Shown piece after piece: positions 49,657 through 61,405 of a stretch of 64,000 nucleotides of DNA (position 1 is its first letter; every line of letters begins with the position of its first letter). The stretch lies in the NCBI RefSeq assembly GCF_039962115.1, contig NZ_JAMPKJ010000025.1:1-64000 (forward strand). Reading direction: 5' to 3'. The notes beneath the pieces were generated by a model. It was not told where the DNA came from, did not search any database, and saw nothing but the letters and a program-made list of their open reading frames with translations. Origin of the DNA: Funiculus sociatus GB2-C1 (lineage in GTDB: Bacteria > Cyanobacteriota > Cyanobacteriia > Cyanobacteriales > FACHB-T130). The position numbers and the translations under genes are program-made.

Positions 49657-52122
49657 TCATCGCGGCACCCCTGAAGAGGTACTTCTAATTTCTGGCTCCG
49701 CACTTGTGAGTCCCAAATCTTGTCTAGGCATGACCGACTGTTGTAAAGTGCCAGAATCTATTAGGCGTTTCAAATCGTTTAGCACCTCTAAAGTTGTCTG
49801 GTAACGGTCGAGGAAGTGGTAACGCACCATTTTATCGATGATGTTGGCAAATTCCTCCTGAACTGAGGCGAAATCGCGCCAGATGACGTTGCAGGTTTCG
49901 TCACTTGAAAGCTTTTGGGGAGATATGCCCGTCAGCGCCTCAATGCCAATTATGCCAACAGCGTAGATATCGCTACTGAAGTTTGGCTTACCTTTGTATT
50001 GCTCAGGCGGCGTGTAACCTTTCGTACCAATGGCAACGGTGAGATTTTCCTGTTCGTTAGGGTTTTGGGGTTGCATTTGTTTAACCGCTCCAAAGTCAAT
50101 CAAAAACAGTTTATTGTCTTTTTCGCGGCGGATAATGTTGCTGGGTTTGATATCCCGGTGGATTACGTAGTTTTCATGGATAAAAGCCAAAGTTTCCAGA
50201 ATCCCATACAGTATTTCAGCTACTTGCGCTTCTGGTAGGCGCTTGTCTACTGGTAATTCGTCGCTCAACGGATGACCTTTGACAAATTCTTCAACTAAGT
50301 AAAATTCTTGGTTTTCTTCAAAATAAGCTAATAATTGGGGAATTTGAGGATGATGACCCAACTGTTCTAGAATTTCAGCTTCTGTGTGAAACAGTCGTCT
50401 TGCCAGTTGCAAGAATTTTTCATCGCGATGAGCAGGCATCAAGTGCTTAATTACACACAGGGGATTACCAGGTCGCTTGGTATCTTCTGCTAGATATGTG
50501 TGACCAAAACCGCCGGAAGCTAAACCCCGAACGGTTTTGTAGCGTCCTGCTAGTAGGGAACCACCCCGGCGATCGCCTATTTGTCCGGCTAAGGACAATG
50601 GTAAGAGAGGCCGCTTTGATTGCTCGTTGTGCAGATCGGCGGCTTTGGTAGTCGCGTCTGGATTGTCTTCCCAGACCGCAGTCGAACTATCATCTGTGAC
50701 CGAAGATTGTTCAGGAGCGATCGCTGTTGAATCATCATCCTTTAGCGCCCAAGATTGTTCAGGAGCGATCGCTCCTGTCGCTAACGTCTCCTGCCGTTTT
50801 TCTTTCAGCAGCGCTTGCATCTCCAGCAGGTTGTTCTGCTGTTCCCGAACCAAAAGCGCAATCTTTTTATGCTCTTTCTCGGCTTGGTGAGTATTGTAAG
50901 CCATCACCCCAGCACCAGTCATCACCAAAGCCAAGGCTGGCGGCACCAGCGGCACCCATCCCGCCTGAGTAAACAGAAGCCAGCAAGTTCCAGACAAAAC
51001 CGCTAAGCACGCCCCTTCTGCTAGTGCCAGATGCCCTGGATGCCGCAGCCGAAAAGCCACCAGTCCGCCGACTACAGACCAGCCTACCAGCCAAAGTGCT
51101 TCTCCCCACTCAGGCCAGAACCAAAATTGACGATGGCCATCCAGACTAGCACTGAGAATCTGACTTACCATCTGGGCATGAATCACAACTCCGGGCATTT
51201 TGCGGTTTCCCGTCACTCCAGCGCTGTAAGGAGTATAAAAAGCATCATCAACGCTGGCGGCGGTGACACCGATGAGAACGATGCGGTCTTTTACCAAGTT
51301 TTCGTCAACCTGACCGTTGAGAACTTGGGACATTGTGACTTGCTTTGCCGGATATTTGGGGGCGCGGTAATTTAGCAGGATTTGATAACCGCGTGTATCT
51401 TCCCCTATATATCCTCCATCATTGGCTTCTAGCGGTTTAAATACGGCATTTTTTATTTTGAGATAACCTTCCTCACTCTCTGTTGGTTTAATTCCTTCTT
51501 TTTCCAAGTAACGTTGTACCAGCTGGAAGCCCAAGGAGTTAAAGTTAGGACAAGGCTGGTGAGCGGATGGAGAGACAAATAACAAACCCCGGCGGATAAC
51601 GCCATCAGAATCAGTTTTCCCTATATCGGCAAAGCCAGCGCGGTCATCGGCAATCTTGGGCGGTGGTGGCGTGCCAGGGGCTTCCCCGTCTTTGACTGCA
51701 CACACAGGAACGATGCGGCGATCGCTACTCATCAGCTTGGAGAATGCCGCATGACCCGGTTCTACTGGCAAATCGCGATAAATATCTAGCCCGATAGCAC
51801 GCGGATTTTTTGAGAGCAATTTTGTCAATAACTGCTGCATCACGCCATCAGTTATTGGGTACTTTTTGTAAGTTTGGATGTCCGCTTCCGTGACAGCCAC
51901 CACCAACAGCCGGGGGTCTGGTTCTTTCTCAGGTAGCAGCCGCACCATTTGATCATAAGCACCCAGTTCCAAGGTTTCCAGCAGACCCTGCTGCCGCACC
52001 CCCACCACAAAGATACTGACTGCCACACTCACTACAACTGTTGGTAGCCTCCATACTGAGGCACCTGTGCGTACCAGACGCGATCGCATTCCACTGAAAT
52101 TCGGCTTTGAGAGCTGAGCCAT
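49657..52122 (-). CDS. CHASE2-domain serine/threonine protein kinase
   Basis: An 821-residue membrane receptor kinase. Order: N-terminal signal anchor (about 25-45), extracytoplasmic CHASE2 sensor (about 50-330, with NPRAIGLDIYRDLPVE and VKDRIVLIGVTAASVDDAF), three hydrophobic helices (about 335-410), a coiled-coil and low-complexity linker, then the kinase domain (about 530-790). In it are the glycine loop GLASGGFGHTYLAED, VIHRDIKPSNII, LIDFGAVKQ and GTKGYTPPEQ, so the kinase is intact. The linker has two AIAPEQS copies, each coded around a GCGATCGC octamer. Ligand and targets are unknown. Confidence 0.94.
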   Translation of the reverse strand: MAQLSKPNFSGMRSRLVRTGASVWRLPTVVVSVAVSIFVVGVRQQGLLETLELGAYDQMVRLLPEKEPDPRLLVVAVTEADIQTYKKYPITDGVMQQLLTKLLSKNPRAIGLDIYRDLPVEPGHAAFSKLMSSDRRIVPVCAVKDGEAPGTPPPPKIADDRAGFADIGKTDSDGVIRRGLLFVSPSAHQPCPNFNSLGFQLVQRYLEKEGIKPTESEEGYLKIKNAVFKPLEANDGGYIGEDTRGYQILLNYRAPKYPAKQVTMSQVLNGQVDENLVKDRIVLIGVTAASVDDAFYTPYSAGVTGNRKMPGVVIHAQMVSQILSASLDGHRQFWFWPEWGEALWLVGWSVVGGLVAFRLRHPGHLALAEGACLAVLSGTCWLLFTQAGWVPLVPPALALVMTGAGVMAYNTHQAEKEHKKIALLVREQQNNLLEMQALLKEKRQETLATGAIAPEQSWALKDDDSTAIAPEQSSVTDDSSTAVWEDNPDATTKAADLHNEQSKRPLLPLSLAGQIGDRRGGSLLAGRYKTVRGLASGGFGHTYLAEDTKRPGNPLCVIKHLMPAHRDEKFLQLARRLFHTEAEILEQLGHHPQIPQLLAYFEENQEFYLVEEFVKGHPLSDELPVDKRLPEAQVAEILYGILETLAFIHENYVIHRDIKPSNIIRREKDNKLFLIDFGAVKQMQPQNPNEQENLTVAIGTKGYTPPEQYKGKPNFSSDIYAVGIIGIEALTGISPQKLSSDETCNVIWRDFASVQEEFANIIDKMVRYHFLDRYQTTLEVLNDLKRLIDSGTLQQSVMPRQDLGLTSAEPEIRSTSSGVPR

Positions 52123-53822: not shown

Positions 53823-56171
53823 TTAGCACCGAATTCCACTTCTCCCAGCGAGGTTTGCAACTACCGCAGCTAACTCGGCTGGTTCCACAGGTTTAGGTAA
53901 ATGTATCTGGAAACCGGACATAAGCGATCGCGTCCGATCCTCAGCCCTAGCGTATGCTGTTAGTGCAGCAGCTGGAATCAGACCCCCTTGCTCTGGCGAT
54001 AGCGCTCGTACCTTGGTGATCAAAGTATAGCCGTCTTCTTCAGGCATCCCGATATCACTGACTAAAACATCTGGCTTTGACTGTTTAATCAGCTCCATTG
54101 CCTCGCTCACCGATGCAGCTGCTTTTACTTGGGCTTTGCACTCTTCGAGTACCGTAGTCAGAAACAGGCGAGTATCAGCATTGTCATCGACCACAAGTAC
54201 CTTTAACCCATCCAGCGAGGGCGGATTGAACGATACTCCACTTTCAACAGCTGCTGGCTGTACCCGCTCCCCATTGCTTGCCTCCACACGGACAGGCATA
54301 ACTGGAAGTTTGACAATAAATGTCGCTCCCTTCCCCGCGCCTTCGCTGTGGGCGCGAACTGTTCCCCCGTGCAGTTCTACCAAGTTGCGGACAATCGCTA
54401 AACCTAGTCCGAGTCCGCTGTATTGCCTAGTGATAGAGCTATCAGCTTGACGAAACCGCTCAAAAACATAAGGCACAAAGTCGGGGTTGATGCCTTCTCC
54501 GGTATCGCTGATTGTAATCTCCACATGAGAGTTAATCCGTTCCAGGCTAACTTGAACACTCCCTTCCTTGGGCGTAAACTTAATCGCATTAGATACCAGG
54601 TTCCAGATTACCTGCTGCAAACGGTCTGAGTCGCCTGAAACTGGCCCGGCTGCCGGGTCGAGTATGCTTTGCAGCCGGATTGCCTTAGCCTCAGCCGCTG
54701 GGCGGACGGTATCAAGAGCCGCCTCAATCACTGTGGACAGTTCCACTGGGCGGACACTCAAGCGGAGTTTGCCTTGAATAATCCGGGAGACATCCAGCAA
54801 ATCCTCAACCAGTTGTGCTTGCGCTCTGGCAGAGCGTTCAATTGTCTCCATAGCTCTAGCAGTAGTCGCTTCGTCAAACTTTCGAGTATTCAGCAGCCGC
54901 AGCCACCCTAGCATGGCATTTAGTGGCGATCGCAATTCGTGGGAAAGTGTCGCCAAAAATTCGTCCTTCATTCGGTTGGCTGCCTCGGCGGCGGCGCGTG
55001 CTTCCTGTTCCGAGGCGAGTAGCTGGGCACGTTCGTCCTCAGCTTGCTTGCGTTCGGTGAAGTCGCGCATGATTTTGACAAAGCCTCGCAACCCAGTTTC
55101 ATCTTTTAAGGGTGTTACGAAGCCACTTGCCCAGAAACGGCTGCCGTCTTGGCGAACGTGCCAGCGCTCATCCTCAGCCCGACCTTCCGCTTCTGCTGTG
55201 TGGAGTTCCTTTTTGTCCTCGCCGCGCTCCAGGTCTTCTAGGGTAAAGATAATTGAAGAATGTTGTCCCAGGATCTCTGCTTCCTGATAGCCTAAAATGC
55301 GTTCTGCCCCAGCGCTCCAACGGACAACACGCGCCTCTGTATCGAGAAAGAAAATCGCGTACTCCTTCACATTTTCCAACAACAGGTGGAACCGCTCTTC
55401 GCTTACCCGCTGTGCTTCCTCGGCAAACTTGCGATCGCTGATGTCAGCTACTATGTAAACGGCACCTGTGAAAGCTTTGCTCTGGTCAAATATCGGATCT
55501 GCGGTGATGGCAAACCAGCGCGTACCGTTCTTTAGCTCTCTGCTTTCGCGACGCTGAGTTTGCTGAATGCTAGAAAAGGGACACTCCTCGATAGAACTCA
55601 GTATTTGTTGTAGGAGTTCCTGGTGAAAGCTACCCTCGATGTGGCTGAAGGGTTTCTCCAGAAGCTGACACATGGCGCTGTTACATCTCACAACTTTTCC
55701 TTCGGCATCGAGTAAACAAACACCGTCGCTTATTGCATCAAAGGTAGTCTGCCACTCCTTCGCTAAAGCCAGGGCCGATTCCTCAGCTTCTCGGATGCGG
55801 AGCAGCGCTTTGACAGTGGCGATCAATTCTATTGGCTCTACAGGTTGGGCTAGGTAGCCATCTGCACCGCCTTCTAATCCCTGTGCCTTATCTCGGCTCT
55901 TGACAAAACTAGCGGATAAATGTAACACGGGAATAAAGGACGTTTCAGGGTTTTCCTTAATCCGGCGACATACCTCAAACCCATCGATATCTGGAAGCTT
56001 TACGTCAAGGATTATTAAGTCGGGTTGTTGTGCTACCACCATTCGCAGACCAGCTTCGCCTGTTGCTGCTTCCTTCACCAGAAATCCGGCTTGTTTTAAC
56101 ATCCGGCTGACGACATAGCGGTTGGTTTCGTTGTCGTCTACGTGCAGAATAGTTACAACGCTATCATCCAT
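53823..56171 (-). CDS. Hybrid sensor histidine kinase (REC-PAS-PAS-HisKA-HATPase-REC)
   Basis: A 782-residue soluble hybrid kinase. Order: receiver (about 5-120, LIILDVKLPDIDGFE with phosphoacceptor D), PAS (about 145-250), PAS (about 265-380), HisKA with phosphorylated histidine in LATLSHELRSPLN (near 405), HATPase_c (NAIKFTPKEGS, DTGEGI, GLGLGLAIV) and a C-terminal receiver (VLVVDDNADTRLF, PDVLVSDIGMPEEDG). It overlaps the upstream kinase by 8 bases (ATGGATGA), so the two are translationally coupled. As the last gene of the Rsb-containing run it is a candidate output kinase. No DNA-binding domain is present, so it must pass phosphate on. Confidence 0.94.
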   Translation of the reverse strand: MDDSVVTILHVDDNETNRYVVSRMLKQAGFLVKEAATGEAGLRMVVAQQPDLIILDVKLPDIDGFEVCRRIKENPETSFIPVLHLSASFVKSRDKAQGLEGGADGYLAQPVEPIELIATVKALLRIREAEESALALAKEWQTTFDAISDGVCLLDAEGKVVRCNSAMCQLLEKPFSHIEGSFHQELLQQILSSIEECPFSSIQQTQRRESRELKNGTRWFAITADPIFDQSKAFTGAVYIVADISDRKFAEEAQRVSEERFHLLLENVKEYAIFFLDTEARVVRWSAGAERILGYQEAEILGQHSSIIFTLEDLERGEDKKELHTAEAEGRAEDERWHVRQDGSRFWASGFVTPLKDETGLRGFVKIMRDFTERKQAEDERAQLLASEQEARAAAEAANRMKDEFLATLSHELRSPLNAMLGWLRLLNTRKFDEATTARAMETIERSARAQAQLVEDLLDVSRIIQGKLRLSVRPVELSTVIEAALDTVRPAAEAKAIRLQSILDPAAGPVSGDSDRLQQVIWNLVSNAIKFTPKEGSVQVSLERINSHVEITISDTGEGINPDFVPYVFERFRQADSSITRQYSGLGLGLAIVRNLVELHGGTVRAHSEGAGKGATFIVKLPVMPVRVEASNGERVQPAAVESGVSFNPPSLDGLKVLVVDDNADTRLFLTTVLEECKAQVKAAASVSEAMELIKQSKPDVLVSDIGMPEEDGYTLITKVRALSPEQGGLIPAAALTAYARAEDRTRSLMSGFQIHLPKPVEPAELAAVVANLAGRSGIRC

Positions 56172-58326
56172 GATTTTTTTCTCCAGGTTCCAGCACTAGC
56201 CCAGCTTTAAGCAGTGCTTCCCGACTTCGGGCGATCGCATCTTCCCGCAATGGATCTTTAGAGAGAATCGCTACCGTCCTCCGGGCAAGATCCCTTTTTT
56301 CCTCTTCTTCTAGCACTTTTGATGTATTAATAATTACCGGTATATTGCTAGTAGCGCGATCGCTTTTTAGAAGTTCTATCACCTCAAATCCGTTCATGTG
56401 TGGCATTGCCAGATCCAGAAAAATGCAATCCGGATTTTCTTCTCCCGCTAAGCGGATACCTTCGCGTCCATTTTCGGCTTCAAGGATTGTAAAATTAGCA
56501 TAAGCTAATAATTGCTTTAGTAAATATCGGGATACTTTGTCATCGTCAATTATCAAAATTTTCTGTTGTCTCTTTTTATTAATAAGTTTATTAAAGTTAT
56601 CCAATAGTAATAATCGCTCTACTGGTTTGACAAAAAACGCATCTGCTCCCAATTCTAGCGCTTTTTTATCGTTATTGATAACGGTAATCACGAGCAGGGG
56701 GATATCCCGCGTTGCTTCATTTTGTTTCATTTCTGAAATCAAATTCCAGGTATTTTGCTCTTTTAGTAATATGTCAGATATTACCGCAACAGGTTTAAAC
56801 ATCTCAAGAGCAAGTTGGGCTTCTTGGAGCGATCGCGCCTGAATAAGCTGATAATTTGAACCCTGGAAATACTTCTCGTAAGTAAAGAATGTCTCCTCGT
56901 TGTCCTCTATTACGAGTACAGGAAAACGAGACGGATCTAACTGCCAGTTTACATCTGGCACCACTGCCCCAAACTCGGAATTATTGTAGCTAATCGGTAT
57001 GGTAGCAAAGAACGTTGACCCCTTTCCTAGCTCACTTGTTAAAGAAACATTGCCGCCCAGCAATTCGGTTAAATGCCGTGATAGAGAAAGTCCAAGTCCT
57101 GTGCCTTTAACCCGCTTTTGAAAAGCGGAATCTACCTGGACAAATTCCTCAAAAATTCGCTTTTTATCCTCCGGTGCAATGCCAATTCCGGTATCAGCCA
57201 CCGAAAAAACTACCGTTCTACCAACCAATTTGGCAGCAATGCGAACTTCACCTTTTTCTGTATATTTGATTGCATTAGAAACAAAATTTCTCAGAATCTG
57301 AGCAACTTTGCCTTCATCAGTGTAGAGTGTGGGAATACCAACGGGTTCTTCAAAAATCAGAGAAATTGAAGAATTATAGGCGAGAAGAGGACGCAGCATC
57401 CCTCTTAAAGCGCCGAAAAGCTCGCTCACCTCAAACTCATTCGGATGAATAACAATTTTTCCCGCTTCAATCTTTGCCAGATCCAAAAGGTCGTTAACTA
57501 ACTCCAAAAGGCCTTCACCTGATTGGCGGATAAACCTTACTTGCTTTTCTTGCTCATCTGTCAATTCCCCATCCATCCGATCTAGCAGTAGGCGGGACAG
57601 AGACAAAATAGAGTTTAGCGGTGTGCGAAACTCGTGACTCATATTCGAGAGAAATCGAGTTTTAAGTTCATTAGCGCGCTGTAAAGAATCAGCTTTTTCG
57701 TCTAATTCTGCATATAGTGCCACAACACCGCGATTAGTATCCTCCAGCTCACGATTGAGCTGAGCTAGCTCGGCTTGACGTTTTTCTAGTTCTTCTAGAG
57801 TGCGAAGCAGTTCTTGGTTTTGCTGCTGAATTTCCGAATAAGGATTTTCAGGCGATCGCATTATCAACTCATTAGCAATCTCACCCAAACGTTTTGTGGT
57901 GACTATAGGGCTGCGTTTAGGCAAATTTTTCCCCATCACCACTACTGTTCCTTGCTCAGGGGTTGAGTCAATGCGAAACTGATCCATCAGTCGTTTGCTG
58001 CCAATAATGCCTAACCCCATTCCCGTATTCGATGTATATTGTCCCTCTAGAATAGTCTTGAGATTAGGGATACCCCGCCCTTTGTCACGAATGGAAACCA
58101 TGAATATTTGAGGCGATTCGCCTTCCACCCAAAATTGAATTTTTCCACCCTTTGCATATTGAAAAGCGTTGCGGGCAATTTCAGAAACCGCAGTAGCAAT
58201 GCGCGTCCGATCTTGAGAGTCAAAACCCAACAACTCAGTAATCTGGCGCACCCGCTGACGTGTCATAACGACATCTTGTTCAAAGCGTATTTCTATAGTG
58301 AGGATAGTTATCTCTTCCTTAGCCAT
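56164..58326 (-). CDS. Hybrid histidine kinase with N-terminal RsbT-like ATPase domain
   Basis: A 720-residue protein. Residues 1-135 form a GHKL domain of the RsbT/RsbW type (AVSEIARNAFQYAKGG, DKGRGIPN, GMGLGIIGSKRLMDQF). A coiled coil (about 165-225) leads to HisKA (LSNMSHEFRTPLNSIL, near 235), a second, kinase-type HATPase_c (NAIKYTEKGEV, DTGIGI), receiver 1 (about 470-580) whose aspartate region reads VISDILLKEQN, and receiver 2 (about 590-710, CIFLDLAMPHMNGFE). The N-terminal ATPase resembles the switch kinase encoded two genes upstream. It could couple stressosome state to phosphorelay, which is inference. It follows the phosphatase gene after a 355-base MITE-filled gap. Confidence 0.93.
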   Translation of the reverse strand: MAKEEITILTIEIRFEQDVVMTRQRVRQITELLGFDSQDRTRIATAVSEIARNAFQYAKGGKIQFWVEGESPQIFMVSIRDKGRGIPNLKTILEGQYTSNTGMGLGIIGSKRLMDQFRIDSTPEQGTVVVMGKNLPKRSPIVTTKRLGEIANELIMRSPENPYSEIQQQNQELLRTLEELEKRQAELAQLNRELEDTNRGVVALYAELDEKADSLQRANELKTRFLSNMSHEFRTPLNSILSLSRLLLDRMDGELTDEQEKQVRFIRQSGEGLLELVNDLLDLAKIEAGKIVIHPNEFEVSELFGALRGMLRPLLAYNSSISLIFEEPVGIPTLYTDEGKVAQILRNFVSNAIKYTEKGEVRIAAKLVGRTVVFSVADTGIGIAPEDKKRIFEEFVQVDSAFQKRVKGTGLGLSLSRHLTELLGGNVSLTSELGKGSTFFATIPISYNNSEFGAVVPDVNWQLDPSRFPVLVIEDNEETFFTYEKYFQGSNYQLIQARSLQEAQLALEMFKPVAVISDILLKEQNTWNLISEMKQNEATRDIPLLVITVINNDKKALELGADAFFVKPVERLLLLDNFNKLINKKRQQKILIIDDDKVSRYLLKQLLAYANFTILEAENGREGIRLAGEENPDCIFLDLAMPHMNGFEVIELLKSDRATSNIPVIINTSKVLEEEEKRDLARRTVAILSKDPLREDAIARSREALLKAGLVLEPGEKNHG

Positions 58327-58344
58327 CGGTTATTTATTAATAGA

Positions 58345-58611
58345 TATAGCAATCCTAAATCATTTATAAAACCTTCCGTCTCTCCTCTTTCTCTCTTGTT
58401 TCTCCTTTCTCTTCCTAAGCCTAAAGCGTAGGCTGAGCGGTTCATCAATTATTACAAACCCTGCAAAGATTGCTATATAGCGGTTCTCGGTTCGATGCGG
58501 TACACTCTGCTCTCTGTCTTGAGATTTGATTCTTACTCCCCTTCCCTACAAGGGAAGGGGTTGGGGGTTAGGTTATTCTGATGTACTTCACGCAACTGAG
58601 AACCGCTATAG
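58345..58611. repeat. Two adjacent MITE-like elements in the stress operon
   Basis: First element 58345-58477 with perfect 10-base terminal repeats TATAGCAATC and GATTGCTATA. A second, 58473-58611, abuts it with ends CTATATAGCGGTTCTCGGTT and AACTGAGAACCGCTATAG, and encloses CCCCTTCCCT/AGGGAAGGGG (58538-58560). Together they fill most of the gap 58327-58681 between kinase and phosphatase genes. Confidence 0.75.
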
Positions 58612-58681
58612 TTTTTCAGTAAAACAAGCATCTTCCCCACCTTATTTGATAGCAGACAAGATGCCCGCCCAACAGTTATTA

Positions 58682-59716
58682 TTAATTTTCCCGTGCGACC
58701 AGTACCGTGACATCATCGCGGTGTCGGGTAAAATCCCGGTATAGAACTCCAGCGAGCAGGCTGGGATGTTTTGCGGCTAAACCAGGATAACGATCTAAAC
58801 GCCACTGCGTACCTAAACCGTCGGAGTGCATTATCAAAATCCCCCCTTTAGACCACTGATAAACAAACTCCTGAATTTTGCGAACCTCATGCCCGACAGT
58901 GCCGTTATGGGAAACCATACTGTAAGAACGGGCTAGTCCTATCTCTTGGTTGGGAGAAAGAACTGTGGCAGAAATGTTGCCCACTCCAGCAAAACAAACT
59001 GCTTGTTTTTCAAAGTTTACTTCAGCGATCGCCATTGCTGCTCCCCGTGTACTTCGCAAAGCTGCATGAGCTGCTTCAATAATTTCTTTAGGACTTTGAC
59101 AGACATTCTCTCGAAATATCCTCACCGCTTCTAACGACGCTTCGGCGGCTAGAGGCCCGTGACCTAAACCATCTGCAACTAATAACAGAGTGCGATCGCC
59201 ACAGCGATCTATTGCCCAAGCATCACCGGAAACCTCCTCACCTATTTTGGGCAAGCACACTACACCTATATCTATATCTATGTCTATATTGCTGCGTAGC
59301 GGCAATTCTTGGTTAGGACTAGCCCAGAGTTGGCTTAATAAGGCTGTCCCGACACTGGGAACAGAATGAATATCAAAAACAGTGGAGAGGCGAGCGATCG
59401 CGCCTAAGCCATTTCCCGGAGTTCCCGCCGTAGAATAGCCATCACGCAAACACTCGCTGATATTGCTCATTCCTGGCCCTTTGTCCAGCGCTAGGATTTC
59501 GATCCCCACGATGTTGTTTTTTTCCACAGCTTGGAGCAGCAACTGACCGTCGGTAGCGTGACGAACCAGGTTATTTGCCATCTCGGTGACAACAATGCCT
59601 ACCTTCCCTCGTTCTGTTTCGTTGAAACCGAGACTACTGGCGAGGGATAAAGCCATCCGTCGCGCTTCACCAGCCTGACTAAACTCTAAGATGGGCAAGC
59701 CGACTGGATCTTTCAT
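58682..59716 (-). CDS. RsbT-like ATPase fused to PP2C/SpoIIE-type phosphatase (RsbX-like)
   Basis: A 344-residue fusion. The N-terminal half (about 1-135) is an anti-sigma-type GHKL domain (VTEMANNLVRHATDG, DKGPGMSN, GNGLGAIARL). The C-terminal half (about 150-344) is a PP2C-like phosphatase with SGDAWAI, LLLVADGLGHGPLAAEAS, GVGNISATVL, IMHSDGLG and the closing RDDVTVLVA, so the metal-binding aspartates appear intact. In Bacillus RsbX removes phosphate from RsbS and RsbR to reset the stressosome; the gene order here (just after RsbT, 4-base gap) supports the same job. The fused ATPase domain is not present in Bacillus RsbX. Confidence 0.92.
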   Translation of the reverse strand: MKDPVGLPILEFSQAGEARRMALSLASSLGFNETERGKVGIVVTEMANNLVRHATDGQLLLQAVEKNNIVGIEILALDKGPGMSNISECLRDGYSTAGTPGNGLGAIARLSTVFDIHSVPSVGTALLSQLWASPNQELPLRSNIDIDIDIGVVCLPKIGEEVSGDAWAIDRCGDRTLLLVADGLGHGPLAAEASLEAVRIFRENVCQSPKEIIEAAHAALRSTRGAAMAIAEVNFEKQAVCFAGVGNISATVLSPNQEIGLARSYSMVSHNGTVGHEVRKIQEFVYQWSKGGILIMHSDGLGTQWRLDRYPGLAAKHPSLLAGVLYRDFTRHRDDVTVLVAREN

Positions 59717-59720
59717 ATAG

Positions 59721-60125
59721 TTACTTCCACTTGGTTATTGTGACGCAGGTGCCTTCGCCGACGTGGGAAACAATATTAAATTCGTTCACCAGCCGCTTTG
59801 TCCCGCTTAAGCCCATACCGAGTCCACCTCCGGTGGTGAAGCCGTCTTTTAGCGCTAGATCGATGTTTGGAATCCCTGGCCCCGAATCTTCAAAAGTCAA
59901 ACGCAGACCACGACGAATTCCTTCATCTAATGCTTCTAGTTTGACTGTCCCGCCACCGCCGTAGTCCAAGGTGTTGCGTGCTAATTCGCTCGCCGCCGTG
60001 ACGATTTTAGTCTGGTCTATCAGGCTAAAACCCAGTTCTACGGCAAACTGACGCACAGCTTGCCGTACTAGCACAACATCTGCCGAAGTGTTGATGCTCA
60101 TGGTTTCATGCTTGTGCATCACCAT
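59721..60125 (-). CDS. rsbT: Stressosome switch protein kinase RsbT
   Basis: A 134-residue GHKL serine/threonine kinase. N box ASELARNTLDYGGGG, G1 box FEDSGPGIPN and G2 region GGGLGMGLSGTKRLVNEF match RsbT closely. In the known system RsbT is held by RsbR/RsbS, phosphorylates them on stress and then is free to activate a target (in Bacillus the phosphatase RsbU). I prefer ATG 60125, with AGGGGG seven bases upstream; the frame overlaps rsbS by 20 bases. RsbU and a SigB operon are absent here, so its target must be different. Confidence 0.93.
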   Translation of the reverse strand: MVMHKHETMSINTSADVVLVRQAVRQFAVELGFSLIDQTKIVTAASELARNTLDYGGGGTVKLEALDEGIRRGLRLTFEDSGPGIPNIDLALKDGFTTGGGLGMGLSGTKRLVNEFNIVSHVGEGTCVTITKWK

Positions 60126-60522
60126 CCAGAAACCCCCTTGGAGTGGAGACGCGATAGCCGCTGTCTCTACGTAGCGATCGCTGCAAAAGAGTCATTCCCT
60201 TCTCAACATTTAAGGCTGTGCGAACGCCTGTTAAGGAAAGTCCCAACTCTACTAAAGTGATGGCGACTGCTGGCTGCATTCCTACGACAACCGTTTGTGC
60301 ATCTAGCACCTGCGACATCTTGGCAATGTTTCCCAGTATCCGCCCAATAAAGGAATCAACTATTTCCAATGCTGAGATATCGATCAGGACACCACGAGCA
60401 TTTGTCTGGGTAATCCGGTTTGTCAGATCGTCCTGCAAGGTCATCGCTAGGCGATCGTGCATATCCACCTGAATAGTGACTAGGAGGAATTCGCCCATCT
60501 GAAGAATGGGGATGCGTTCCAT
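60106..60522 (-). CDS. rsbS: Stressosome core protein RsbS (STAS domain)
   Basis: A 138-residue single STAS-domain protein that closely resembles Bacillus RsbS: IPILQMGEFLLVTIQVDMHD, GVLIDISALEIVDSFIGR and GMQPAVAITLVELGLSLTGV. The conserved serine that RsbT phosphorylates is S57 in VDSF. It carries about 18 extra C-terminal residues (RRDSGYRVSTPRGFLDG). RsbS and RsbR build the stressosome scaffold. It lies 16 bases after rsbR and overlaps rsbT by 20 bases, so expression is coupled. Confidence 0.94.
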   Translation of the reverse strand: MERIPILQMGEFLLVTIQVDMHDRLAMTLQDDLTNRITQTNARGVLIDISALEIVDSFIGRILGNIAKMSQVLDAQTVVVGMQPAVAITLVELGLSLTGVRTALNVEKGMTLLQRSLRRDSGYRVSTPRGFLDGDAQA

Positions 60523-60538
60523 TACAACTCCTTGCTTA

Positions 60539-61405
60539 TTAAGTGGGTGTCTGGGAGCGAACGAACGCCACCCCCGTTCGCTTCAAGGCTAGAGCAAAGG
60601 CATCGGCTAAGGTAGCTTTGGTAATTACATCAGCCAGATCCACGCCTAGGTAGACGATGGTTTGAGCGATTTGGGGACGAATACCGCTGATGATGCAATC
60701 AGCACCCATCAGTCGAGCAGCTGTTACTGTTTTTAGTAGGTGCTGTGCTGTCAGGGTATCTACGGTTGGCACTCCGGTAATATCGATGATGGCAACTTCT
60801 GCACCCGTTTCGACGATTTTGTTTAGTAGAGATTCCATGACAATCTGAGTGCGGGCGCTGTCGAGGGTGCCAATAATGGGCAATGCTAAAATCCCTTCCC
60901 ACAGTTTTACGACTGGCGTTGAGAGTTCCATCAATTCCTCTTGCTGGCGGAGGATTACCTCTTGGCGGGCTTTTTGATAGCTTTCCGTCGTCCAGAGTCC
61001 TAGCTTATCTAGGAGGTTAGTGGCACACCAAATCTCATCTATAAGTGTCTCGACATCCTGTGCTAGTTCCTGGCGCAAGCGGCTGAATAAAGGCTGCTTA
61101 AAGGAAAGAACAAAGATGGCGGTTTCTGATGGGGTGAAGCCTTTAATCGAGCGCGACCGCGAAATCGAAGCCAGCAAATCCCGCACGCCACGCCACTGAG
61201 ACGTTTGGATGTCGGTTAAATTACCTCCCTGTACTGCATTTGTAAACAAGTCAAGGAATTCTTTGCACTCTTCGCGCAGTTCTGTTTCCCTGAGCAAGTC
61301 TTTACGGATACCAGCAGCTAGTTGCTCGTTTAGCCACTCTGTCAACAGTTGGGCTTCGTAATTTTTGAGAATTGCCGGAATTTTGCTTTTGCCGTTCAAG
61401 TTCAT
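60539..61405 (-). CDS. rsbR: Stressosome sensor protein RsbR-like (RsbRD_N plus STAS)
   Basis: A 288-residue protein whose C-terminal STAS domain (about 155-280) has IIDITGVPTVDTLTAQHLL and GADCIISGIRPQIAQTIVYL, the two threonine-containing motifs (VDT, AQT) in the region phosphorylated by RsbT. The N-terminal part (about 1-140, AILKNYEAQLLTEWLNEQL and on) resembles the RsbRD_N domain rather than the non-haem globin of Bacillus RsbRA, so the sensed signal may differ. It is the first gene of a tightly packed leftward set rsbR-rsbS-rsbT-phosphatase. Confidence 0.92.
   Translation of the reverse strand: MNLNGKSKIPAILKNYEAQLLTEWLNEQLAAGIRKDLLRETELREECKEFLDLFTNAVQGGNLTDIQTSQWRGVRDLLASISRSRSIKGFTPSETAIFVLSFKQPLFSRLRQELAQDVETLIDEIWCATNLLDKLGLWTTESYQKARQEVILRQQEELMELSTPVVKLWEGILALPIIGTLDSARTQIVMESLLNKIVETGAEVAIIDITGVPTVDTLTAQHLLKTVTAARLMGADCIISGIRPQIAQTIVYLGVDLADVITKATLADAFALALKRTGVAFVRSQTPT

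Follow-up and report, generated by a model that had tools for sequence, protein, structure and literature searches.

How does a stressosome hand on its signal when the sigma-factor pathway that it serves in Bacillus and Listeria is missing from its operon? The question is raised by a locus of the cyanobacterium Funiculus sociatus GB2-C1 (assembly GCF_039962115.1), found in a 64,000-nucleotide stretch of contig NZ_JAMPKJ010000025.1 (positions 1 to 64,000, hereafter the window). Six open reading frames (ORFs) follow each other there on the minus strand, in the order rsbR, rsbS, rsbT, XT (an RsbT-like domain fused to a PP2C phosphatase), HK1 and HK2 (two hybrid histidine kinases; Table 1). A preliminary description made from the DNA alone had listed these genes in this order on one strand, had seen no sigma factor, anti-sigma factor or RsbU, and had put forward the kinases as the likely output in place of the Bacillus one. 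ORF and Pfam analyses confirmed the genes and their order. In the reading that we consider probable, HK1 would be the direct output of the stressosome, coupled to it by docking of an RsbT-like domain and/or by free RsbT acting on a conserved helical linker, with the N-terminal receiver (REC) of HK2 as the likely acceptor.

Stressosome core and output kinase

The stressosome part of the operon appears orthodox. RsbR matches RsbRD_N (E 4e-28) and STAS (E 3e-14), and these two families only, at E<=0.01 in Pfam, with no globin family among the matches. Its Thr217 aligns with Thr209 and its Thr249 with Thr241 of Listeria RsbR, and Ser183 stands at the position of Thr175, the second RsbR threonine site being Ser183 here (Listeria numbering from PMC9237128; this and the other papers are cited from parts of their text). 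RsbS matches the RsbS of solved stressosome entries (6qcm, E 2.1e-32) and its Ser57 aligns with Listeria Ser56, and RsbT is 41.8% identical to Listeria RsbT (E 9e-36) and has its ATP-site residues intact. The PP2C part of XT scores 38.6 bits against Listeria RsbX versus 5.1 against RsbU, and the best PDB matches of its AlphaFold2 model (predicted template modelling score, pTM, 0.87) are RsbX 3w40 and 3zt9, the latter titled as a stressosome adapted to second-messenger signalling. XT is not a single-domain RsbX, since Pfam places HATPase_c_2 N-terminal to SpoIIE. With an RsbR that joins a sensor domain to STAS, the phosphorylation sites, an intact RsbT and an RsbX-type PP2C, the module is predicted to be an RsbRST(X) stressosome. 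RsbU, RsbV, RsbW and sigma factors are absent from the six operon genes, which do not have the composition of a SigB-type operon, and none of the six proteins matches RsbU_N (Pfam, E<=0.01). In the whole genome (6.47 Mb, 142 contigs) there are 10 matches to sigma-70 region 2, none of them on the stressosome contig, together with 13 STAS matches and further SpoIIE/HATPase_c_2 proteins. The missing sigma factor, anti-sigma factor and RsbU had thus been correctly noted.

HK1 has the HisKA histidine, HATPase and receiver of a hybrid histidine kinase, the histidine (H231) being invariant in 26 aligned rows. Its first 137 residues are 40.6% identical to Listeria RsbT (E 7e-28) and 38.8% identical to the RsbT of the same operon; similarity to RsbW (E 0.09) or to the catalytic domain of HK1 itself is not significant. 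The closest named relative of this N-terminus in the collection searched belongs to Trichocoleus sp. FACHB-40 (97%). An AlphaFold2 model of residues 1-290 (predicted local distance difference test 87.5, pTM 0.61) has an RsbT-type fold at residues 7-134 and one predicted helix (residues 162-248) running into HisKA, and its best Foldseek match is SpoIIAB (E 1.2e-7). The N-terminal domain of the first kinase had earlier been proposed as the target of RsbT; being itself an RsbT paralogue, it is not an obvious one, and it is more likely that the domain docks directly on RsbS/RsbR, or that RsbT acts on the linker, than that RsbT binds this domain.

The residues of the ATP site (Glu and Asn of the N-box, Asp and both Gly of G1) are kept in 102 of 102 RsbT proteins and in 98 of 98 XT domains, and of 84 HK1 domains 78 retain the N-box Asn and 77 the G1 Asp. 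These counts include near-identical records and omit the short RsbT of L085, X proteins of up to 290 residues (16 of 113) and four of 88 HK1 proteins (L081, short; L068, L193 and L194, unplaced). In a quick tree (148 rows, 141 columns) the 41 HK1 N-terminal domains form one group among the RsbT rows, with a support of 98 in the Shimodaira-Hasegawa-like approximate likelihood ratio test, and the anti-sigma kinases fall outside the RsbT and HK1 rows (support 97). This topology fits an HK1 domain that arose once, from a copy of rsbT, the simplest place for the copying being the operon itself.

Conservation along HK1 peaks in the linker: among all 16-residue windows, taken over 88 sequences (48 clusters at 80%), ELEDTNRGVVALYAEL (residues 193-208) has the lowest mean entropy, 0.68, and TNRGVVALYAEL alone has 0.59. 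The corresponding values are 0.84 or 1.05 for the H-box (SHEFRTP or LSNMSHEFRTP), 1.55 for HisKA and 1.68 for the catalytic ATPase domain; shifted linker windows give 0.86 (TNRGVVALYAELDEKA, residues 197-212) and 0.90 (residues 195-210). The lead of the linker over the H-box is slight across 16 residues and clear for TNRGVVALYAEL, which was not among the six search patterns that define the HK1-anchored sample described below. The invariance of EIQQQNQEL was dropped as evidence, because EIQQQNQE was one of those patterns and the sample is therefore biased for that motif. The spacing is also fixed, the core Gly and the HisKA histidine being 31 residues apart in 84 of the 85 matches with both motifs (in 8 further matches the His motif searched for was not found, and some genomes enter the set twice). 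The sole exception comes from Embleya (L135 7888-9654), whose kinase has two copies of the core with an offset of 18 residues; the first lies 49 residues before the histidine, which places the second at 31. By eye, no similarity of the HK1 linker to the TNRGVV core of Listeria RsbU was found.

Linkage of kinase and stressosome across genomes

The association of the kinase with rsbS was examined in 987 genomes (386 cyanobacterial, 398 of Pseudomonadota and 203 of a third phylum). RsbS as query matched 16 of the 386 cyanobacterial genomes, 13 of them at 77% identity or more, and in the 12 of these other than the genome of the window the downstream DNA invariably holds XT and then an RsbT-like kinase. 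Of the 398 Pseudomonadota, 40 matched, 17 at 62% or more, and all 17 have XT followed by a kinase gene, whose kinase part resembles HK1 and HK2 weakly (26-32 bits) in L193 and L200. A kinase gene thus follows XT in 29 of 29 rsbS-anchored loci, and the linker is present in all 29 kinases (28 by pattern, L122 by linker search). Conversely, a 45-residue linker peptide matched 13 of 386, 17 of 398 and 3 of 203 genomes at E<=1e-4, and these 33 genomes are the same 33 that hold a close RsbS (>=62%), each linker lying 1431-2915 bp downstream of rsbS on the same strand. Both cut-offs were set post hoc, at visible score gaps; the centre genomes G000, G391 and G386 are among the 33 by choice, and the sampled genomes are related to each other, so that figures for a chance coincidence are not strict probabilities. 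Weaker linker matches occur in genomes without an RsbS match (G607, E 0.0096; G823, G949, G988, G989 and G994, E 6.5e-4 to 0.0096), and G689 has a second copy (E 0.002); cyanobacterial linker matches were reported only to E 0.001. All 28 plasmid records that contain the linker have an RsbS as well, among the matches listed (60 of 99 RsbS records). The order recurs in other phyla and is therefore not a chance neighborhood. A lack of conserved linkage in relatives would have counted against the kinases as output; the linkage with rsbRST is instead conserved, in support of what had been suggested.

A second sample of 55 loci, anchored on HK1 and found by motif patterns, is biased but wider than the rsbS-anchored one, and covers Cyanobacteria, deltaproteobacteria, Spirochaetes, Rokubacteria, Bryobacterales, an alphaproteobacterium and a verrucomicrobium. 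By script, rsbR-rsbS-rsbT-XT lie upstream of the kinase in 37 of the 55, to which L068 is to be added, and ten others end at contig edges. The set, or most of it, also occurs on plasmids of Sphingomonas, Paraburkholderia and others, on a plasmid of a haloarchaeon with a different kinase, and on plasmid MP1 of the radiation-resistant laboratory strain of Deinococcus radiodurans, where rsbR, rsbS, rsbT, XT, kinase and REC kinase are all present (L083 3134-8938). Among metagenome-assembled genomes of Rhizonema, two (L059 and L044) have an HK1-like kinase and a receiver-first gene with neither XT nor rsbRST upstream, and a third (L046) has the full set.

The preliminary description had treated both kinases as the target of the stressosome, and of the two HK2 is the less constant partner. 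Downstream of the kinase, 21 of the 29 rsbS-anchored loci have a receiver-first gene on the same strand (6 of 12 in Cyanobacteria, L116-L121; 15 of 17 in Pseudomonadota, L193 and L200 being the exceptions), as do 33 of the 55 HK1-anchored ones, 14 lacking it despite room and 8 ending too soon. In many loci the start of this next gene matches the N-terminal REC of HK2, and the domains behind it vary (GGDEF in Desulforhopalus, HisKA_2, or HisKA with PAS). Because the receiver-first gene recurs while the following domains vary, the HK2 REC is a plausible cognate acceptor of phosphoryl groups from HK1. In the cyanobacterial loci L122-L126, HK1 is shorter, at 518-530 residues, with no match to the HK1 receivers and no HK2-like gene next to it in the stretch read.

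Coupling of the stressosome to HK1

The analyses above establish the gene order, the domains, the kept active-site residues, the linkage, the conservation and spacing of the linker and the grouping of the HK1 domain with RsbT; the docking, release, direction of regulation and phosphotransfer we infer as follows. At rest, the STAS core of RsbS/RsbR would hold RsbT together with the RsbT-like domains of XT and HK1. Once the RsbR sensor domain receives a signal, RsbS Ser57 and RsbR Thr217 would become phosphorylated, and RsbT and the held domains would be released. The released RsbT could then act on the helical linker of HK1, as RsbT does on the RsbU linker, and/or the freed RsbT-like domain of HK1 could let two linkers zip into a coiled coil; either route would set an in-phase dimer and switch HisKA on or off. 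Phosphoryl groups would pass to the receivers of HK1 itself and probably to the N-terminal receiver of HK2, and XT, tethered by its RsbT-like domain, would dephosphorylate the STAS proteins and reset the system in the manner of RsbX.

In favor of this reading are the linkage across genomes, the nearness of the HK1 domain to RsbT, the conservation and constant spacing of the linker, and the modular build and Asp92 pattern described below. Several observations weigh against it. Five of the 55 HK1-anchored loci have no adjacent rsbRST despite more than 4 kb of upstream sequence (L052, L060 and L077, with XT only, and L059 and L044, without XT), and in L061 and L076 rsbRST is nearby in reversed orientation. 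Conservation of operon and linker could come in part from transfer of the whole cassette. Residues 39-54 of the RsbT-like domain are nearly as conserved (0.81) as the linker, coming next after the windows that overlap ELEDTNRGVVALYAEL, and RsbT and XT are not single groups in the quick tree (4 changes each). In Vibrio vulnificus, no positive interaction of RsbT with VvD1 is reported in the part of the study cited (PMC9237108). Finally, the RsbT-like domain is detectable in 21 of the 29 rsbS-anchored kinases, all 8 that lack it being from Pseudomonadota (8 of 17) and keeping the linker, and by eye the linker core is absent from L080, L085, L137, L138 and L139. Outputs with an RsbT-like domain and no core (by eye) are those of Phaeobacter, Salipiger, two Paraburkholderia and the verrucomicrobium. 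The eight kinases that keep the linker speak, on the other hand, for the reading through their modularity, as does Streptomyces sp. Mg1 (L136 8062-9432), in which a degenerate RsbT-like domain and a linker variant precede a PP2C effector, with no kinase. An archaeal Halobaculum plasmid (L140 4792-9190) carries rsbR-rsbS-rsbT-XT, then a PAS kinase with the variant core TNEGMVALTLEL at its N-terminus, and a response regulator. Because the linker persists without the domain and the domain without the core, the two are separate parts, each dispensable, that recur beside RsbST and XT.

This modularity bears on which part would do the coupling. If free RsbT binds and stiffens the HK1 linker as it does that of RsbU, the RsbT-like domain could be auxiliary, serving dimerisation or ATP sensing off the stressosome. 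This wiring, which we hold to be somewhat unlikely, draws on the eight Pseudomonadota kinases and the Halobaculum variant just described, and on the precedent of the RsbT-RsbU linker, where a contact is predicted between Asp92 of Bacillus RsbT and Arg91 of the RsbU linker, and where RsbT D92K gives partial rescue of RsbU R91E (PMC12143880). At the Asp92 position, Asp or Glu occurs in 49 of 55 RsbT and 57 of 57 XT proteins, and Gly in 33 of 44 HK1 N-terminal domains (dereplicated at 80%), so that RsbT keeps the acidic residue and HK1 mostly does not. The pattern, suggestive only, fits free RsbT as the linker partner and a different task, such as docking, for the HK1 copy; counting against it, the region of Asp92 adjoins the ATP-binding loop and may have changed for other reasons. 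An auxiliary domain is less readily reconciled with the ATP-site residues of HK1, which are mostly kept, or with those outputs that have an RsbT-like domain and no core.

The converse, in which HK1 is an RsbT-type client that sits on the STAS core through its RsbT-like domain while free RsbT just phosphorylates the core, would account for an RsbT paralogue whose active-site residues are mostly kept and for the shared layout of XT, both fused copies lying in one operon. It leaves aside the kinases without the domain that adjoin otherwise similar RsbRST-XT genes, and we think it unlikely. Conventional partner switching, with the HK1 domain or RsbT acting on STAS and sigma proteins encoded elsewhere and an alternative sigma factor as the output, seems improbable: candidate partners exist among the sigma-70, STAS and SpoIIE/HATPase_c_2 proteins of the genome, yet the contig has no sigma match, the HK1 domain is not RsbW-like and the module has no RsbU_N. 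That the kinases lie beside the stressosome by chance or shared transfer only, with no common function, is hardly credible and already largely refuted by linkage, for in spite of the 355-bp gap between XT and HK1 and the few loci with HK1 and no adjacent rsbRST, a kinase follows XT in every rsbS-anchored locus, the 33 genomes match both ways and the HK1 domain groups with RsbT.

Relation to known systems and further features of the locus

With the Bacillus/Listeria RsbRST-RsbU-RsbVW-SigB pathway the module shares RsbR, RsbS, RsbT and an RsbX-like phosphatase, with phosphorylation sites that align with those of Listeria; it differs in that RsbU, RsbV, RsbW and a sigma factor are absent from the module and the output is a histidine kinase. 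More similar is RSTX-D1-D2 of Vibrio vulnificus, in which two-component genes directly follow rsbRSTX and SigB is absent (PMC9237108, PMC10014275), and in which deletion of RSTX and of D1 gives similar phenotypes (Cutugno et al. 2023, PMC10014275). However, X of the clusters surveyed there is described as a single-domain PP2C, RsbR carries a globin and, in the part of the paper cited, no RsbU_N was detected in D1 (PMC9237108), whereas here X and the kinase each have an RsbT-like domain and RsbR has RsbRD_N. Moorella thermoacetica provides another stressosome with a non-sigma effector, a diguanylate cyclase (Quin 2012, as cited in PMC4976288 and PMC12143880), which uses RsbU_N where the present kinase has an RsbT-like domain and a specific linker instead. 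Histidine kinases with RsbU_N beside rsbRST are also on record (PMC9237108, PMC12143880), and Pfam detected RsbU_N in four output kinases of our own sample (L128, L129, L206 and L210). In these four RsbU_N replaces the RsbT-like domain and X is a single-domain PP2C, and in their genomes the linker gave no match at E 0.001 (G044) or 0.01 (G535, G734).

The preliminary description knew of no account of this exact set. A stressosome with two-component output is of a kind already known, and rsbRSTX is widespread, with Cyanobacteria among its carriers (Heinz et al. 2022, PMC9237108). As far as the open-access literature goes, the apparent novelty lies in an RsbT-derived domain shared by reset phosphatase and output kinase, and in the linker signature: no description of an RsbT-like domain on an output kinase, or of the linker, was found in titles and abstracts or in the cited parts of PMC9237108 and PMC10014275, and the linker peptide as a literature query returned no paper.

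The anatomy of HK1 suggests how stressosomes can signal without the Bacillus sigma-factor pathway. Heinz et al. described eleven downstream architectures in globin-RsbR clusters, with RsbU_N in some and undetected in the majority of the downstream proteins considered (PMC9237108). Candidate coupling parts for SigB-less stressosomes are an RsbT paralogue and a linker whose conservation equals or exceeds that of the H-box. We tentatively propose that the loci form an ancient class of their own, which would reach from Cyanobacteria through Deinococcus and Actinomycetes to, in part, an archaeon. In this class RsbT would have been duplicated inside the operon, and the copies joined to reset phosphatase and output kinase alike. 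As a stressosome client, the kinase would then combine a GHKL domain of Ser/Thr type with a histidine-kinase engine in a single chain, and the sequence-specific helical linker would be an output port for kinase or phosphatase effectors. If true, such a class would account for the way in which stressosomes lacking RsbU_N outputs transmit their signal. The linker also offers a sequence signature for finding stressosome outputs and makes the coupling step testable by point mutants, D. radiodurans being a tractable laboratory strain that carries the set. The wiring first suggested for the locus gains support from the linkage; beyond the content of the new domain and linker, the mechanism is one that we infer.

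Many loci with a distant RsbS have a single-domain X. The output N-termini (first ~140 residues) of eight loci with a distant RsbS, picked by eye because they resembled decayed RsbT, were taken for profile comparison. The idea that Vibrio-like outputs start with a decayed RsbT was dropped, as L212, L218 and L219 gave a probability of about 1. The N-termini of L211, L213, L214, L217 and L220 pooled reached a profile probability of 88 (E 3e-6) against the HK1 domain, with negative controls at 1.4 or below; single members scored lower (L220 up to 5, L217 up to 28.5, one negative control at 3.2). These five seemingly carry a decayed RsbT-like domain without ATP-site motifs, in L217 before a region that is GGDEF-like by eye. 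L219 (3760-6936) encodes an output of 1058 residues, a size similar to that of VvD1 of V. vulnificus, which contains PAS, HisKA, HATPase, two REC and Hpt; neither a Pfam family (E 0.001) nor an RsbT profile matched the N-terminal 160 residues of the L219 output.

Table 1. Coordinates in the window of the operon genes and of features within them.
Feature	Position	Strand	Description
rsbR	60539..61405	-	RsbRD_N sensor domain and STAS (Pfam)
rsbS	60106..60522	-	single STAS protein, Ser57 at phosphorylation site
rsbT	59721..60125	-	GHKL Ser/Thr switch kinase (Pfam HATPase)
XT	58682..59716	-	RsbT-like domain and RsbX-like PP2C phosphatase (Pfam HATPase_c_2, SpoIIE)
XT-HK1 gap	58327..58681		355 bp, holds 29-nt imperfect inverted repeat
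Inverted repeat arms	58476-58504 / 58582-58610		29 nt, imperfect
HK1	56164..58326	-	RsbT-like GHKL domain, helical linker, HisKA, HATPase, REC, REC (Pfam HATPase_c_2, HisKA, HATPase, 2 REC)
HK1 RsbT-like domain	57925..58308	-	about residues 7-134; coordinates computed from residue numbers
HK1 conserved helical linker	57661..57843	-	about residues 162-222; coordinates computed from residue numbers
HK2	53823..56171	-	REC, PAS, PAS, HisKA, HATPase, REC (Pfam)

The rsbR, rsbS and rsbT genes had been described as packed with overlaps. The whole set is packed apart from the 355 bp between XT and HK1: rsbS and rsbT overlap by 20 bp, HK1 and HK2 by 8 bp, 16 bp separate rsbR from rsbS, and 4 bp separate rsbT from XT. 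The XT-HK1 gap is absent in several relatives, and its inverted repeat looks like a small mobile repeat, the repeat-end sequence TATAGCGGTTCTC occurring 5 times in the window at up to one mismatch versus 0.02 expected. Promoter-like sites (14, shuffled mean 11.1) and terminator-like sites (6, versus 10.2) are close to their shuffled means, and no promoter is therefore claimed. Near the stressosome, on the same strand, a large ORF at 49657-52122 appears by eye to encode a CHASE2-type sensor fused to a Ser/Thr protein kinase.

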